A DNA stretch of 42,220 nucleotides, taken from positions 1-42,220 of the forward strand of contig CACNGC010000012.1 of the NCBI GenBank assembly GCA_902619805.1, given 5' to 3'. The stretch is from an uncultured SAR116 cluster alpha proteobacterium. Its GTDB lineage: Bacteria > Pseudomonadota > Alphaproteobacteria > Puniceispirillales > Marisalimonadaceae. The translations under genes were made by a program, and so were the position numbers. The notes beneath the pieces were generated by a model, which had not been told where the DNA came from, made no database searches, and saw only the letters and a list, made by a program, of their open reading frames with translations. Of this stretch, positions 29,938 to 35,278 are shown one piece after another; within the stretch, counting starts at the first letter, position 1, and each line of letters starts with the position of its first letter.

Positions 29938-29976
29938 GGACGCGTAGCTTAGCTGGATAGAGCAACTGCCTTCTAA
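29938..29976 (+). other. 5' half of disrupted chromosomal tRNA-Arg(TCT); attachment site left
   Basis: These 39 bases match the complete tRNA at 30140-30216 from the first base to the end of the anticodon loop, with one difference in the D stem (GCTT versus GCTC). The match stops sharply after CTTCTAA (29970-29976), where TAGAC replaces the expected GCAGT. Its missing 3' half is at 35234-35278 in the same orientation. The 7-bp loop shared by both ends is the likely crossover core. Confidence 0.92.
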
Positions 29977-30043
29977 TAGACTTCTTTACCAAATCACCCT
30001 AAAATATATATTAAAAAACAATGGTTTATTTACATATATTCTG

Positions 30044-30106
30044 TATGTGAATCGTATGTGAACGATATGTGAATAGTATATCAGAAGTTTATGTGAATTG
30101 TGTGAA
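30044..30106 (+). repeat. Left arm-type repeats, TATGTGAA x4-5
   Basis: TATGTGAA occurs at 30044, 30055 and 30066 with an 11-bp period, again at 30090, and as TGTGTGAA at 30099. The block begins 68 bp inside the left core. Bases 30055-30077 recur with one mismatch at 35125-35147 near the other end. Paired arrays flanking a core are typical arm-binding sites of a lambda-type integrase. Confidence 0.8.
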
Positions 30107-30139
30107 TGGATTTGGGAAAGTAAAATTTGGTTGATTTAA

Positions 30140-30216
30140 TGGTGAACGCGAGAGGATTCGAACCTCTGACCTACTGCTTAGAAGGCAGTTGCTCTATCCA
30201 GCTGAGCTACGCGTCC
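30140..30216 (-). tRNA. tRNA-Arg (anticodon TCT), complete, element-borne
   Basis: The 77-base gene folds fully: acceptor GGACGCG with CGCGTTC (one G-T pair), A73 and encoded CCA, D arm GCTC/GAGC, anticodon stem ACTGC/GCAGT around CTTCTAA, and T arm AGAGG-TTCGAAT-CCTCT. It reads AGA, a heavily used Arg codon in AT-rich genes. It lies inside the element, opposite in orientation to the disrupted chromosomal gene, and probably replaces it. Its 3' half is identical to the right-hand remnant at 35234-35278. Confidence 0.97.
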
Positions 30217-30308
30217 ACAGTCATTAAAGTCCACAATCAAGTTCACCAGAGGTGTTCCAAAGTGTGTTCAAGTTTTATAGTGTATGATGTTATATCTGTA
30301 AATAAAAA

Positions 30309-30336
30309 ACCTCTCAGTCGTTTAATACTGAGAGGT
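30309..30336 (-). terminator. Rho-independent terminator
   Basis: A perfect 10-bp stem ACCTCTCAGT/ACTGAGAGGT with an 8-base loop is followed on the minus strand by TTTTTTATT (30301-30308). It lies 52 bp past the stop of the 55-aa ORF and about 90 bp upstream of the complete tRNA-Arg, so it would end minus-strand element transcripts before the tRNA. Confidence 0.88.
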
Positions 30337-30387
30337 TCTCTACCCCATAACAAATAACCACCTACAAGTGTGACAGTCTTTATTGGT

Positions 30388-30555
30388 TCAACTTTTTATA
30401 TTCAACTCACTTGAAGTAAATTGTCTAAATCTCTTTTCTGATTCTGATGGAATATGATTTGATTTTATTACTTGTTCGTATGCTGACCTCATATCAATAA
30501 TAGAGGGTATATTCTTAGTTCTTTCTTCTAATCTGTTGTACTGGTTTCTTTTCAT
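30388..30555 (-). CDS. Short ORF (55 aa), unrecognised
   Basis: This frame starts MKRNQYNRLEERTKNIP and ends SSELNIKS, charged and soluble. A stop codon lies nine codons before the ATG, so it is short in either reading. The strong terminator just downstream supports a transcribed gene, or the 3' remnant of one whose 5' part was replaced by the acyltransferase fragment. No family is recognised. Confidence 0.45.
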   Translation of the reverse strand: MKRNQYNRLEERTKNIPSIIDMRSAYEQVIKSNHIPSESEKRFRQFTSSELNIKS

Positions 30556-30581
30556 TTCCAGTTCTTTATAAAAATCATTTT

Positions 30582-30761
30582 AATGAGAGTGATTTAAGAA
30601 CTTTTGCAAAATTACCTCCACTTATAAAAGGATATCTCAGAGTTGGGGGGAGAATAAGTGACAGTTTTTTTGTCGATTATGATTTCAATACAATTGACCT
30701 TTGTGTGGTTGTCCAAACAGAGAACATAGATGAAAAATACAAGAATAAATTCTTAAATTAA
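30582..30761 (+). pseudogene. 3' fragment of an OlsB-like GNAT acyltransferase
   Basis: The last 59 codons read LPPLIKGYLRVGGRISDS, then FFVDYDFNTIDLCVVVQ, and end EKYKNKFLN. This is the C-terminal signature of ornithine-lipid acyltransferase/hemolysin-like GNAT proteins (PPLLKGYLRLGA...DFNTxD...YxxxFL). The frame has stop codons upstream and no start, and the N-terminal domain is missing. It is the only element gene on the plus strand. Either cargo decay or capture of chromosomal DNA would explain it. Confidence 0.65.
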
Positions 30762-30842
30762 AGTGATTGATTGTGACAGTTAAGCAAAATATATATTATA
30801 GTCCAATAGACAATCTATCATTTTTAGACAATTTCATTTTTA

Positions 30843-30864
30843 TTCTAAAGTTACTCCTTTAGAA
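30843..30864 (+). terminator. AT-rich hairpin after the acyltransferase fragment
   Basis: TTCTAAAG and CTTTAGAA form a perfect 8-bp stem with loop TTACTC. A run of six T begins five bases later on the plus strand. The stem is weak, so this is only a possible terminator for the acyltransferase fragment. CTTTAGAAC recurs at about 30929. Confidence 0.3.
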
Positions 30865-30957
30865 CATCATTTTTTGTGATTCAAAAGTGTTGGTTTTCTG
30901 GGAGTTTTTTATCCTCTTATTAAGAGGACTTTAGAACACCTATATTTGATTATCATA

Positions 30958-31383
30958 TTATTTTAATGGATATGTCGATGTAGCATGACACAGAATATCT
31001 CTACTCTCTTCTGAATAAATTTTTGTTTCACCAATTGCTATTGTACTACCAAACCTTTGAACCTCACTTTCAATTATAAAATAATCTCCAAAAGCTGGTC
31101 TTATAAAATTATTGTTTTGAGAAAGTGTTCCTCTTTGAGATTTGGTTGACGTATTCATTGCAATAGACATAACTGTATCAATTACTGACATCAAAATTTG
31201 TCCAGATAAAGCACCTGTAACAAATTGATAATCTTTAGAATTTTCTAATCTTGCGACAACCTTTCCTTCTTCAATACTTAAAAAAGACAATTTTAATTGT
31301 TTTACATAAGGAGCAAACACATAATCATATATCTGCTGAATATTTTCCATTGTTATAGTATCTTCAGGTAATTTTAAATTCAT
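30958..31383 (-). CDS. PaaI-like hotdog-fold thioesterase
   Basis: This 141-residue hotdog protein has the central helix ALSGQILMSVIDTVMSIAM, corresponding to the HGGxxxxLxDxAMG helix of PaaI-type thioesterases, and the strand NFIRPAFGDYFIIESEVQRFGSTIAIGE cited here by position (about residues 90-117). The Asp of the helix is kept, but the usual HGG is LSG, so the catalytic details are uncertain. It would hydrolyse acyl-CoA thioesters. It follows the methyltransferase gene by 14 bp inside the element and is unusual cargo for it. Confidence 0.72.
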   Translation of the reverse strand: MNLKLPEDTITMENIQQIYDYVFAPYVKQLKLSFLSIEEGKVVARLENSKDYQFVTGALSGQILMSVIDTVMSIAMNTSTKSQRGTLSQNNNFIRPAFGDYFIIESEVQRFGSTIAIGETKIYSEESRDILCHATSTYPLK

Positions 31384-31397
31384 ATGAAACCTTTCTT

Positions 31398-32780
31398 TTA
31401 ATAAACTTGAACATCATACCCTACAAATCTTCTATTGTATTGATTAGCGACATTACCAGTCGTTCCACTACCCATGAAAGGGTCAAGGACTAAATCACCC
31501 TCTTGAGTAGTTTGTAGGACTGGTAATGTTACTATCTTAGGAGGAAACGGAGCAGGGTGTTCAACTTCACCAAATGACTTTTGATTAACTACTGCACTTT
31601 TAACAATATCTTCATTCCACCAATCACCCATATTTTTACCCTCTCTAGGAATGTAAGGTGTCTGCATAGTTAAAGAACACTTTAAATTTCTATGTCTAGG
31701 TGCATGAGATGGTTTTGTATCCTCTTTTAGAGGTATTAGAGTGTGGTTATATTTGTAATCCATTGATTTAACCAGATGGAATATAAACTCGTATGTAGGA
31801 CATAAGTTATTCTTAGATGATGATGGTTTGGGATTTGTTTTAGCCCAGATAATTGTGTTTCTTAAAATCCAACCCTTTTCTTGTAAAGAAATGGCAACCC
31901 TATGGGGGATATTCATAAGGTTGCCCTGATGAAATGTGTCTCCAAGATTTAAGAAAAATGAACCAGTATCACTTAAAACTCTTTTACAATCATTAAGATG
32001 TTTTACTAAGTTAGAAACATATTCATCAGAATCTTTTTCATTACCCAGTCCACCATTCTCACAATACTTTCTTTTGTTCCAATATGGTGGAGATGTAAAA
32101 ATACAATCAACTTCATCAGTTAATAATTCATTCATTTTTGAAGAACATTTTTTGAAAAATCTAAAGTTATCATTAAATGTTTTTTTAGATGTTTTTCTAT
32201 TTTCTAATTGTGCATCTTGTTCTTTTTTGTCTCTACTGGTCTGAATATAGGCTTGGTTAATTGTAAACAATCCATTGTCTATCAAATCAATCAGCCCAGG
32301 ATTGTGTTTTTCAATGAATAATAATTTGGTTATCTGGACTCCAGATATGCCAATCAAATCTCCAACTATGTCTCTGGTACGACTTCGGTTCAGATTTACC
32401 GAAGTTAAAACTTCTTCACATAATATAAGGTCACTTCTTTTTCCTTGACCAATTTTATGTTCTTCCATCAATACTTTAGCTTCATTTAATAATTCTCTAC
32501 AGGTTTTTATCCTCTGTTTATTATGATGAATTAAATAAGTTATTACGTCTGATTCATTTACTTCTATTTGTTCACATTCTACTTCTTTCCAATTAAGATT
32601 ACAGACTGCTAAATATCTTCTATGACCACTTATGATTTGAAAATGTTGGTCAATAATAATCTTTTCTAACAAACCAACTGACCTAATAGATGTTCTTAAA
32701 TCATCAATATTAGATAATGAATATATTTCTTGGTTCTTAGGGTGTGGTTTGATTTTCTTGATATCTACAAACATAAACAC
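31398..32780 (-). CDS. ParB-domain DNA methyltransferase
   Basis: This 460-residue fusion starts with a ParB/Srx-like domain (PHPKNQEIYSLSNIDDLR, SIRSVGLLEKIIID, ISGHRRYLAV to about residue 60). A ParB-type helix-turn-helix region follows (about 90-180), then a beta-class amino-methyltransferase domain with TSPPYW at 229-234 and the AdoMet motif DPFMGSGTT at 433-441. The TSPPY form suits N4-cytosine or N6-adenine methylation. No restriction endonuclease is adjacent, so it is probably an orphan methylase, a common type in phages and elements. The start may be the second ATG (32774). Confidence 0.9.
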   Translation of the reverse strand: MFMFVDIKKIKPHPKNQEIYSLSNIDDLRTSIRSVGLLEKIIIDQHFQIISGHRRYLAVCNLNWKEVECEQIEVNESDVITYLIHHNKQRIKTCRELLNEAKVLMEEHKIGQGKRSDLILCEEVLTSVNLNRSRTRDIVGDLIGISGVQITKLLFIEKHNPGLIDLIDNGLFTINQAYIQTSRDKKEQDAQLENRKTSKKTFNDNFRFFKKCSSKMNELLTDEVDCIFTSPPYWNKRKYCENGGLGNEKDSDEYVSNLVKHLNDCKRVLSDTGSFFLNLGDTFHQGNLMNIPHRVAISLQEKGWILRNTIIWAKTNPKPSSSKNNLCPTYEFIFHLVKSMDYKYNHTLIPLKEDTKPSHAPRHRNLKCSLTMQTPYIPREGKNMGDWWNEDIVKSAVVNQKSFGEVEHPAPFPPKIVTLPVLQTTQEGDLVLDPFMGSGTTGNVANQYNRRFVGYDVQVY

Positions 32781-33026
32781 ATTTTGCCATACCCTTTTTG
32801 AAAATGCAACACCCTATATTTTTTAACGAAATTCAAAGTTAAAATTGATAAACAACAAATACTAAACACAACGGATATATGTTTATTAAACCTTTTTGGA
32901 ATATATATCGTTTATATAGTGATTGGGGGTGATTTAAGGGGTTCTGACGGATAGTTTACTCTTACTGAGAGTAGTTATAACCTAAGTTTCCGATAGTTCC
33001 GAAAAGTCCTTAAAATTGTCCGAAAA
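32781..33026. other. Non-coding gap between integrase and methyltransferase genes
   Basis: I see no gene in these 246 bases. They include AT-rich tracts that could hold the promoter for the methyltransferase and a short imperfect hairpin around TACTCT/AGAGTA near 32960. TCCGAAAA occurs twice near the integrase stop (about 32998 and 33019). No regulator can be named. Confidence 0.4.
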
Positions 33027-34346
33027 TTAGAAAGGTAATACTTTACTTGAGCCTATCTGATTACCTTTTGTGATTGTTTTAGCAAACTCTGGGTCTTTTG
33101 TTTTTGCATGAGAATAATAGTCCTCAATCATCTTTACACTTGTACCCATATTTACTGCTAACTGATATATCGGAACTTGGTTAATTCTCATAGTTGCATA
33201 GGTATGTCTTAACGAATAAATGGTTCTGTAATCACCATCATTATTTTCTCTTAATCCACATTTATCTAATAATGTTTTGTATCCAACTTTATAAGATTGA
33301 ACTGGTTTTCCATCTGGGTGACAAAAGATATGTTCTCTTAAATCAAACTTGTCTTTATCAATACCTAATTCTTTCAATCGAAAATCAAATAATCTCTTGA
33401 AGTATTCTTCAGTATTTGGATTTGCAATCGTATCTCTTTTTCCAGTTTTTCCATCAACTTTCAAAAGTAATCTTTCCTCTTCATTTGGAAGTGAAACAGA
33501 TTCTAAATCTACCCATCTCAATCCTCGAGCTTCTCCAACTCTCAATCCAGTATTACCCAAAATCAAAATGTAATGTTGTAGGTAGAATCTCTCTCTGTAA
33601 ATCTTAGGACTTACATACCCTTTCCCTTTAGAATAACTGAGTTCTTCATCTACCCATTTTCTCATAAAGTTTGTTAGTTTTCTCCAATCCTTTAATGAAA
33701 ACTCTGGTCTTGGATTTGATTTTCCTTTTGGAATATCAAAGATAAAATCTTGAGTAATATAATCTCTTTCTTTACAGAATTTGAAAAACTGATTTATCGC
33801 ACCTCTATGACTTCTCATTGTAGAGATTGAGTATCTACTTTTACCATTTGATTTTGCTTTAGATTTCTTGGAGTAATTATACTTTTTGTTCTGAAAAGAT
33901 TCATTGTACTTCTCATCAGAATATCTCCAGACAATCATATCTTGAATGTCTGAGTTTTTTATCTCATCAATTTTTTTACCTTTTAGGAACTCAACAACAG
34001 TATCTTCAACAACCCATATTGTATTCTTTTCTATGTTACTTGTAGTTCTATTTGTAATTCTACTAAGTACATACTTTTTCCATTCTTCGAAAACTTGTCT
34101 GATAGTTTTACCTTTTAGACTTCCACCTTTTTCTACTTTGTTTCTTAACTCAAAGTATTTGTTTAAACCTATTCTTTCAGCCTCTGACTTATCAGATGTT
34201 TTAGTTGAAAATACTTTGTAACCAGTAGAACCATCAACACTTACTCGACATTGCCATTTGGGATTAGAAACAACATCTGGTCTATGATAAAGAATGACTT
34301 TACCATCTCCTCTAACATCAATTTGGTTCATTTCAAACTTTGTCAT
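33027..34346 (-). CDS. Tyrosine integrase of the tRNA-splitting element
   Basis: This 439-residue recombinase has an N-terminal beta-rich segment (about 15-65, VILYHRPDVVSNPKWQCRV and STKTSDKSEAERIG), likely arm-binding; a core-binding region (about 75-215); and a catalytic domain. The first Arg is in GNTGLRVGEARGL, the second Arg/His is at 380-381 in YSLRHTYAT, and the nucleophile Tyr411 is in DYYSH. The 7-bp core and TATGTGAA arrays at both element ends are its expected sites. It is the third gene of an overlapping minus-strand set after the serine recombinase and the 57-aa ORF. Confidence 0.95.
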   Translation of the reverse strand: MTKFEMNQIDVRGDGKVILYHRPDVVSNPKWQCRVSVDGSTGYKVFSTKTSDKSEAERIGLNKYFELRNKVEKGGSLKGKTIRQVFEEWKKYVLSRITNRTTSNIEKNTIWVVEDTVVEFLKGKKIDEIKNSDIQDMIVWRYSDEKYNESFQNKKYNYSKKSKAKSNGKSRYSISTMRSHRGAINQFFKFCKERDYITQDFIFDIPKGKSNPRPEFSLKDWRKLTNFMRKWVDEELSYSKGKGYVSPKIYRERFYLQHYILILGNTGLRVGEARGLRWVDLESVSLPNEEERLLLKVDGKTGKRDTIANPNTEEYFKRLFDFRLKELGIDKDKFDLREHIFCHPDGKPVQSYKVGYKTLLDKCGLRENNDGDYRTIYSLRHTYATMRINQVPIYQLAVNMGTSVKMIEDYYSHAKTKDPEFAKTITKGNQIGSSKVLPF

Positions 34347-34506
34347 TTTTATCCTTTTTAGTATTCCAATCTATGTCATCAAGTTCAGCTTCTGAGACTT
34401 CTTTTATCAGTTGCTTTTCTCTAATAGTTCTTCTCTCAAGTTCCTTTAATGTTGGAAATCTTTTCCTAAAGTTTGTGTAATATTCAATGAACTTTGTAAT
34501 CTTCAT
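34333..34506 (-). CDS. Small charged protein (57 aa) coupled to both recombinases
   Basis: The frame begins MKITKFIEYYTNFRKRFPTL and ends DWNTKKDKNDKV, with a basic first half and acidic second half. Its ATG shares a base with the serine recombinase stop (TAATG), and its 3' end overlaps the integrase start by 14 bases. Such tight coupling supports real translation. Its size, charge and place beside an integrase would suit a directionality factor, but no excisionase signature is visible, so this is inference. Confidence 0.6.
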   Translation of the reverse strand: MKITKFIEYYTNFRKRFPTLKELERRTIREKQLIKEVSEAELDDIDWNTKKDKNDKV

Positions 34507-35096
34507 TACGCAACTTCATCTAAGACTTTGTAAACTGTACCAACTCCTACTTTGAGTTCTTTTGCAATCTTCCTAATACCTACTCCTTGTTCTTTCATAT
34601 ACTTGATAGAATGAGTAAGACCCTCATTAAGATTGGTTGGTCTACCAATATGTTTCCCTTGAGATTTTGCCCTGTTCTGTCCAGATATAACCCTTTCTCT
34701 AATCATACCTCTTTCAAACTCTGCAAACACTCCACACATTTGAAACATCATTTTTCCAAATGGTGTAGAAGTATCGATTCCAGATTGATGAATATACAAA
34801 TCACAACCTACTGAATGTATCTCATTAAGAAATGAAACTAAGTCTTGAAGACTTCTTCCAAGTCTATCAACTGACCAACAAAGTATAATGTCAAAATCCT
34901 TTTTGATTGCACCTTTGATAATGTTGTCAAAACCAGTTCTAAAATCTCTACCTTTTGCCCCTGAGATTCCTTCATCAGTAAAGATTTGAGTAACAACATA
35001 TCCTTTGAGTTCTGCAATCCTCTAAAGTTCTAAAAGTTGATTATCAGTAGATTGACTATCAGTACTAACTCTGGCATATATTGAACATCTTTTCAT
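34506..35096 (-). pseudogene. Serine recombinase (resolvase/invertase) with in-frame amber codon
   Basis: The 196-codon frame is a complete resolvase/invertase-type recombinase except for one TAG at codon 25 (35022-35024). Before it lies MKRCSIYARVSTDSQ with catalytic Ser11; after it come FTDEGISGAKGRDF, WSVDRLGRSLQDL, FAEFERGMIRERV, and a C-terminal helix-turn-helix GIRKIAKELKVGVGTVYKVL. A single base change from CAG, AAG or GAG would restore it. Everything downstream is intact, so the mutation is recent, tolerated, an error, or read through. Confidence 0.85.
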
Positions 35097-35124
35097 CGAG
35101 ATTACCTTTCACAAAAATACCTTA

Positions 35125-35147
35125 TATGTGAATGATATGTGAATAGT
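35125..35147 (+). repeat. Right arm-type repeats, TATGTGAA x2
   Basis: Two TATGTGAA at 35125 and 35136 keep the 11-bp period and, with the following TAGT, form a 23-bp block matching 30055-30077 at 22 positions in the same orientation. It lies about 90 bp inside the right core and just upstream of the serine recombinase gene, so binding there could also influence its promoter. Confidence 0.8.
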
Positions 35148-35233
35148 GTTTTGATGTAAAGTTTTGGTTTTAACAAGGTGTAAGGTGTTGTATTTAATGG
35201 GTTTTTATTAGAGTGATAGGATAAACCCCTTTA

Positions 35234-35278
35234 CTTCTAAGCAGTAGGTCAGAGGTTCGAATCCTCTCGCGTTCACCA
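35234..35278 (+). other. 3' half of disrupted chromosomal tRNA-Arg(TCT); attachment site right
   Basis: Forty-five bases from CTTCTAA (35234-35240) through the anticodon stem, variable loop, T arm, acceptor strand and CCA are identical to the complete element-borne tRNA. The sequence to the left (CCCCTTTA) does not match a tRNA 5' half. Joined to 29938-29976 at the 7-bp core it reconstitutes a normal tRNA-Arg(TCT). Confidence 0.92.

Follow-up and report, generated by a model that had tools for sequence, protein, structure and literature searches.

A small integrative element that has very probably replaced the tRNA-Arg(UCU) gene of a marine alphaproteobacterium with a copy of its own

In the stretch of DNA analysed here (the window, 42,220 nucleotides from an uncultured SAR116 cluster alphaproteobacterium), the gene for tRNA-Arg(UCU) is interrupted by an integrative element that carries a complete tRNA-Arg(UCU) gene itself. 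The cut lies in the anticodon loop (7 nucleotides), and the two halves of the host gene are found 5.26 kb apart on the same strand. The genome to which the window belongs (G000) comprises 1.98 Mb in 52 contigs and is 91% complete. The following features mark the two ends of the element:

29938..29976, plus strand: 5´ half of the host tRNA-Arg(UCU) gene at the left junction, ending in the 7-bp core CTTCTAA (29970-29976); 38/39 identical to the intact gene
30046..30106, plus strand: left TGTGAA repeats at 30046, 30057 and 30068 (11-bp steps), 30092 and 30101; putative arm-type integrase sites
30140..30216, minus strand: complete carried tRNA-Arg(UCU), inverted, 3´ end towards the core; ARAGORN tRNA-Arg(tct), identical at 77/77 positions to the uninterrupted gene of 22 genomes
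35127..35143, plus strand: right TGTGAA repeats at 35127 and 35138 (11-bp step); putative arm-type integrase sites
35234..35278, plus strand: 3´ half of the host tRNA-Arg(UCU) gene at the right junction, starting with the core (35234-35240); 45/45 identical to the intact gene

The only sequence that both host halves share is CTTCTAA. An earlier reading of the letters (the sequence-only reading) had described a gene split exactly at this motif into 29938-29976 and 35234-35278, in the same orientation and with only 7 bp in common, and a complete inverted internal copy at 30140-30216; the split is confirmed, and ARAGORN finds one such copy, on the minus strand. It sits 163 bp inside the integrase-distal end of the element. 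Compared with this carried copy, the 5´ half of the host gene is identical at 38 of 39 positions and the 3´ half throughout. The 7-bp core fits the overlap of a tyrosine recombinase, and the TGTGAA repeats on both sides are likely arm-type sites for the integrase.

Related genomes reveal the locus without the element. An uninterrupted tRNA-Arg(UCU) gene is present at the same place in 22 of 40 same-genus genomes, all of them 77/77 identical. The search pattern for the 3´ half matched in 28 of the 40, and 26 of these 28 contain a full gene, again always 77/77 identical: the 22 uninterrupted host genes, three carried inverted copies (G000 and the relatives G035 and G025) and one gene in the relative G013. 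In the other 12 genomes the pattern had no match, and one of them, G006, has a foreign gene. Both window flanks were found within 200 bp at 20 of the 22 uninterrupted genes, the exceptions being G018 and G007, and in all seven empty sites compared the left and right flanks meet with an overlap of exactly 7 bp. In the two exceptions (L328 in G018 and L329 in G007) an intact tRNA-Arg(UCU) is followed by unrelated islands of about 11-13 kb, in which neither a displaced tRNA half nor an integrase match was found. A further candidate for comparison, L041 in G010, was dropped since it is another locus (tRNA-Lys). The flanks in G035 are 73-75% identical to those of the window, whereas the left end of the element is 98.6% identical over 444 bp and the integrase module 97%. 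An element that is nearly identical between diverged flanks moves, thus pointing to horizontal transfer. The element is an insertion and not a chance arrangement. Two more relatives, G003 and G022, could not be scored for the split and carried layout because their left ends lie beyond the contig edge.

No other UCU tRNA is present among the 35 tRNA matches of the window's genome (typed with ARAGORN, four fragments by eye; genome 91% complete), and scans by pattern and similarity revealed no second complete UCU gene in any same-genus genome. The statement in the sequence-only reading that AGA is a frequent codon is borne out by the 31 open reading frames of at least 200 amino acids in the window (some of which may be spurious), where it occurs 290 times among 10,774 codons, 409 of which code for arginine. 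Host halves have drifted in several genomes (5´ half of the window 38/39; 3´ half of G022 43/45; 5´ half of G006 34/39; both halves of G025, 27/39 and 39/45), and the carried copies of the window, G035 and G025 are all 77/77. As sole copy and conserved gene, the carried tRNA-Arg(UCU) looks like a gene in use. When the host halves were joined in silico, a recognisable tRNA resulted in five of six cases (the window, G035 and the tRNA-Arg(CCU) cases G048, G051 and G042 described below). In the window it is a complete tRNA-Arg(tct), which qualifies the addiction and the probable lethality proposed in the sequence-only reading. The sixth case is G025, where no tRNA was recognised in the joined halves. 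This genome contains a decayed relative of the element: the carried tRNA has stayed at 77/77 although neither half of the host gene is undamaged, the lipid genes of the cargo are kept, and no integrase match was found in the genome or at the locus. To judge by this pattern, the G025 element is domesticated.

The same scheme was found at another arginine tRNA gene. The pattern for the 5´ half of tRNA-Arg(CCU) matched in 55 of 136 genomes of the order, and in four of these 55 (G042, G048, G051 and G135) the loop is followed by foreign sequence; each of the four also has a second CCU sequence. Rfam gave only weak hits on L114, L117 and L119, and the CCU halves were found by similarity search with known tRNAs. 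An integrase and the 3´ half are present in G042, G048 and G051; the G135 contig ends early, with the left end visible and no integrase on it. A whole CCU gene was found in 29 of 30 CCU loci examined, the one in G048 being the carried gene, while the G042 locus yielded none unless the intron mode was used. Two further candidates for a split CCU gene, G067 and G068, with an apparent one-base break, proved to have whole genes. In G048, G051 and G135 the second CCU tRNA is direct, divergent and complete and lies about 121-156 bp away. Behind the carried tRNA of G135, at a distance of about 235 bp, Rfam detects a Methylobacterium-1 RNA (L226:9611-9711, 95 bits). The carried CCU tRNA of G042 is inverted and has a 213-nucleotide insertion in its anticodon loop that matches the group I intron family (42.9 bits, E 9.1e-10; below the curated Rfam value of 50 and unlisted at the gathering threshold); ARAGORN in intron mode rebuilds the tRNA. 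In this gene (L225:8963-9252) the group I intron thus occupies exactly the loop that is used as bacterial attachment site (attB). With the intron in place, the carried copy would no longer be visible to the integrase and might be protected. G048 and G042 are closed, one-contig genomes. For G048 all 38 tRNA matches were examined (37 typed, one a Met-like fragment) and for G042 33 of 34, and in both the only CCU gene is the carried one. Taking UCU and CCU cases together, the carried tRNA lies 121-266 bp from the core in 8/8. The reverse orientation described for the window recurs in G035, G025 and G042 but is not a rule, since the copies in G006, G048, G051 and G135 are direct.

These cases bear on the question whether the inverted copy might have arisen through amplification or chimeric assembly, as is known to happen with single-cell genomes. 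The isolate names of the relatives suggest single-cell assemblies, and the copy is indeed inverted beside matching sequence. However, the same junction is found in G035 and, decayed, in G025, and the CCU layout is found in two one-contig genomes; such independent occurrence refutes a chimera, which we regard as extremely improbable. Somewhat less remote, though still improbable, is a passenger role: the carried tRNA would be retained for some other benefit, such as escape from tRNA-cutting host nucleases, and AGA would be read by a tRNA gene not seen here. Phage tRNAs have been proposed to counter tRNA-cutting defence (in the cited part of PMC10865867), and a genome that is 91% complete leaves room for such a gene. 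Against a passenger stand the genus scans, which gave no second complete UCU gene, the carried copies as the sole CCU genes found in G048 and G042, and the untouched copy in G025 next to two decaying halves.

Replacement may involve a tRNA from outside the genus. In G006, 266 bp beyond a host 5´ half in decay, lies a direct tRNA-Arg(UCU) that is unlike the type of the genus and 77/77 identical to the tRNA of 8 of 13 genomes of a sister genus (g13), with unlike flanks. This case comes from a single contig of 3.3 kb.

The integrase tree places the UCU elements, G042 and the G048/G051 pair in one clade, whose support of 91/82 falls below the 95 mark. In the clade next to it (96/96), an intact tRNA-Arg(CCG) lies beside the integrase in 7/7 cases, and within the stretch examined four of the seven have a displaced 3´ fragment of 41-49 bp. 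Within the UCU clade, G013 has an integrase 99% identical to that of the window, an intact tRNA on the left end of the element and a 3´ half on the right. The sequence behind the tRNA of G013 resembles that behind the direct tRNA of G006; thus, a restoring element could arise from a replacing one if direct repeats of the tRNA collapsed. An origin of G013 by inversion was rejected, as no orphan inverted 5´ half is present. It might also be possible that the window holds a canonical restoring island and that recombination between two 5´ halves of the tRNA later inverted the gene it had restored. Two inverted halves at a distance of 163 bp would be able to recombine, and the restored state is found in G013 along with a 99%-identical integrase. 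The product of such a flip would, however, hold an orphan inverted 5´ half, which G013 lacks, and the divergent, complete and direct tRNAs of G048, G051 and G135 cannot be made by inversion, so that we consider this course of events highly unlikely.

The window's own genome has a tRNA-Arg(ACG) island (C1:185786-191917, L331) with an intact gene, a distant integrase-like match and a 62-nucleotide displaced copy 6 kb away, apparently a restoring contrast within the same genome. This genome also contains two decayed fragments resembling tRNA-Met (C1:49353-49410 and C1:55070-55128; L112 and L110), which are separated by about 6 kb and are possibly an old island. In G030, a split in the anticodon loop is seen in tRNA-Arg(ACG) as well, next to another integrase (C45:6476-6515, L119), and a 77/77 copy of tRNA-Arg(ACG) is found on a contig other than that of the split gene (C71, L330).

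We consider it very probable that the element replaced the host tRNA-Arg(UCU) with its own copy and that the same integrase clade does so at CCU. The proposal of the sequence-only reading, an element that carries its own tRNA, is supported by the tRNA scan and the empty sites, both of which it had named as checks, as well as by the moved copy in G035, the decay in G025 and the CCU cases in closed genomes. The 5.26-kb element would enter the tRNA-Arg(UCU) gene by tyrosine-integrase recombination, with the 7-bp anticodon loop as overlap and the arms of the anticodon stem as core sites; the position of the core is seen at the junctions, and the strand exchange itself is presumed. Since the attachment site of the element (attP) shares only 7 bp with attB, integration destroys the host gene. 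From then on the carried tRNA, located beside the integrase-distal arm, would decode AGA, as its conservation and status as sole copy suggest. The host halves, freed from selection, would therefore decay, and loss of the element would presumably become lethal. Carried tRNA and cargo may be kept even once the integrase is gone, the state seen in G025. At tRNA-Arg(CCU) the integrase clade would apply the same scheme.

Several observations weigh against this interpretation. Decay is not universal: neither half has changed in G035, nor has the 3´ half in the window, G003 or G013. A promoter scan of the carried tRNA gave no hit on its strand and none that exceeded chance. The genomes with a carried UCU copy are 66-91% complete and another copy may therefore be missing from the assemblies. 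The elements of the window, G035 and G025 have the same kind of end and do not count as three separate origins. With its 99%-identical integrase and yet an uninterrupted tRNA, G013 shows that the family is not uniformly replacing. A UCU tRNA could also read AGG by wobble, and the CCU tRNA may for that reason be less essential. A wider interpretation, towards which we lean with clearly less confidence, is that in marine Alphaproteobacteria one clade of small elements, with cargo but no virion genes, seizes arginine tRNA genes that are present in single copy, destroying the target, installing its own tRNA, even a foreign or intron-bearing one, next to its attachment arm, and thereby ratcheting itself and its cargo into the lineage.

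Between the carried tRNA and the right end, the element of the window contains the following genes:

30552..30758, plus strand: remnant of a GNAT gene (C-terminal 69 amino acids), PF13444, OlsB-like; whole in other members
30767..30835, plus strand: remnant of an acyltransferase gene (N-terminal 23 amino acids), PF01553, OlsA-like
30958..31383, minus strand: 4HBT-family thioesterase (cargo), PF03061; 100% identical in G022
31398..32780, minus strand: fusion of ParB-N and N6-N4 DNA methyltransferase, PF02195 + PF01555; 93.9-99.8% identical in four relatives
33027..34346, minus strand: tyrosine integrase of 439 amino acids, PF00589 (4.1e-7), phrog_1 (1.2e-32); 98-100% identical in G003, G013, G022 and G035
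34506..35096, minus strand: serine resolvase/invertase-like gene with a premature stop; whole (196 amino acids) in four relatives

The two families PF13444 and PF01553 presumably fit ornithine-lipid synthesis (OlsB/OlsA). Both lipid genes are whole in G013 and G022; in G035 one is whole and one shorter, and in G025 both are open with 75-78% identity. For the CCU elements, 20 selected proteins were scanned. The cargo in G048 includes two TET-associated glycosyltransferase-like proteins, a NERD protein and a Rep-like protein (PF23343), and that in G042 HSP70, TerB, M48 peptidase, cytosine methylase and HNH domains. Besides the main integrase, a second, short protein of the phage integrase family (about 200 amino acids) is encoded in G048 (L115:7765-8364) and G051 (L116:13951-14547). 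Neither the four element open reading frames of the window nor the selected ones of G035, G013, G048, G051 and G042 matched a capsid, portal, tail or large-terminase protein; one HNH protein had a secondary small-terminase hit. Viral contigs contained no relative of the integrase, and neither the attP junction nor the left repeats had an exact match there; phage records gave one weak integrase match (26%). Given the Rep and DNA-modification genes, the elements might stem from a phage satellite or be of plasmid-like origin, and a satellite moved by a helper phage is possible.

If the wider interpretation is true, such elements would be one means by which a genus comes to exchange an essential tRNA gene for that of another. 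The cases also suggest how a conserved tRNA gene can give way to one from another genus or one bearing a group I intron. The decayed elements would be the end point, at which the tRNA of the element becomes the host gene and holds the cargo in place. Since the integrases of the replacing window element and the restoring G013 element are 99% identical, the switch between the two modes is open to direct study.

The principle is already known, and the closest known system is tRNA-dependent lysogeny. In actinobacteriophages such as Fionnbharth, Gaia and others the carried tRNA was genetically proven to be needed, and tRNA-rebuilding relatives exist (cited passages of PMC10865867). There, too, a tyrosine integrase acts on an attB in a tRNA gene and a tRNA of the same isotype is carried; the core is 8-17 bp long and does not rebuild the tRNA, compared with 7 bp, the anticodon loop, in the window. 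Those passages describe temperate phages, whereas the elements studied here are about 3-16 kb long, have no virion genes among the scanned proteins, target arginine tRNAs, carry the tRNA 121-266 bp from the core and are found in decay states of a lasting takeover. The element of the window has the tyrosine integrase, the attB in a tRNA gene with a non-rebuilding core and the carried tRNA (30140-30216) but, with no virion gene among the scanned proteins, does not qualify as a temperate phage; it works like tRNA-dependent lysogeny without being counted as a member. That the carried tRNA is needed after integration is suggested here by its status as sole copy and by the decay of host halves. The authors leave open, in the passages cited, how prevalent the phenomenon is beyond actinobacterial phages and what connects it with restoring integration; the same passages name prophage Lj965 as a case of a replaced tRNA. 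In Sinorhizobium meliloti, likewise one of the Alphaproteobacteria, an inactivated host tRNA was replaced by an incoming isoacceptor closer to that of unrelated species; these sequences are phage-related, and the cited passages (PMC11476347) contain no decay of host halves. Canonical tRNA-gene islands, as covered in the cited part of the Islander paper (PMC4383910), have a tyrosine integrase and a crossover site in the anticodon loop as well, but their attP fragment restores the target. This is not so in the window, G035, G025 and the CCU cases but holds for G013 and the CCG relatives; phiLM21-like prophages also restore the tRNA (PMC12429752, cited in part). Finders built on the Islander principle, which search for a piece of an intact target, may overlook tRNA genes split in this way. 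Tycheposons, to which the sequence-only reading had likened the element, resemble our elements in being from ocean bacteria and in combining a tRNA-linked tyrosine recombinase with cargo genes. The passages cited on them (PMC10872708) do not mention target destruction with replacement. A literature search, mostly without full texts, found no report of this strategy in small elements free of virion genes, nor of the fixed place of the tRNA beside the arm or of the decayed end state. New here are thus the small elements without virion genes, the arginine tRNA targets and the natural evidence of a permanent takeover.

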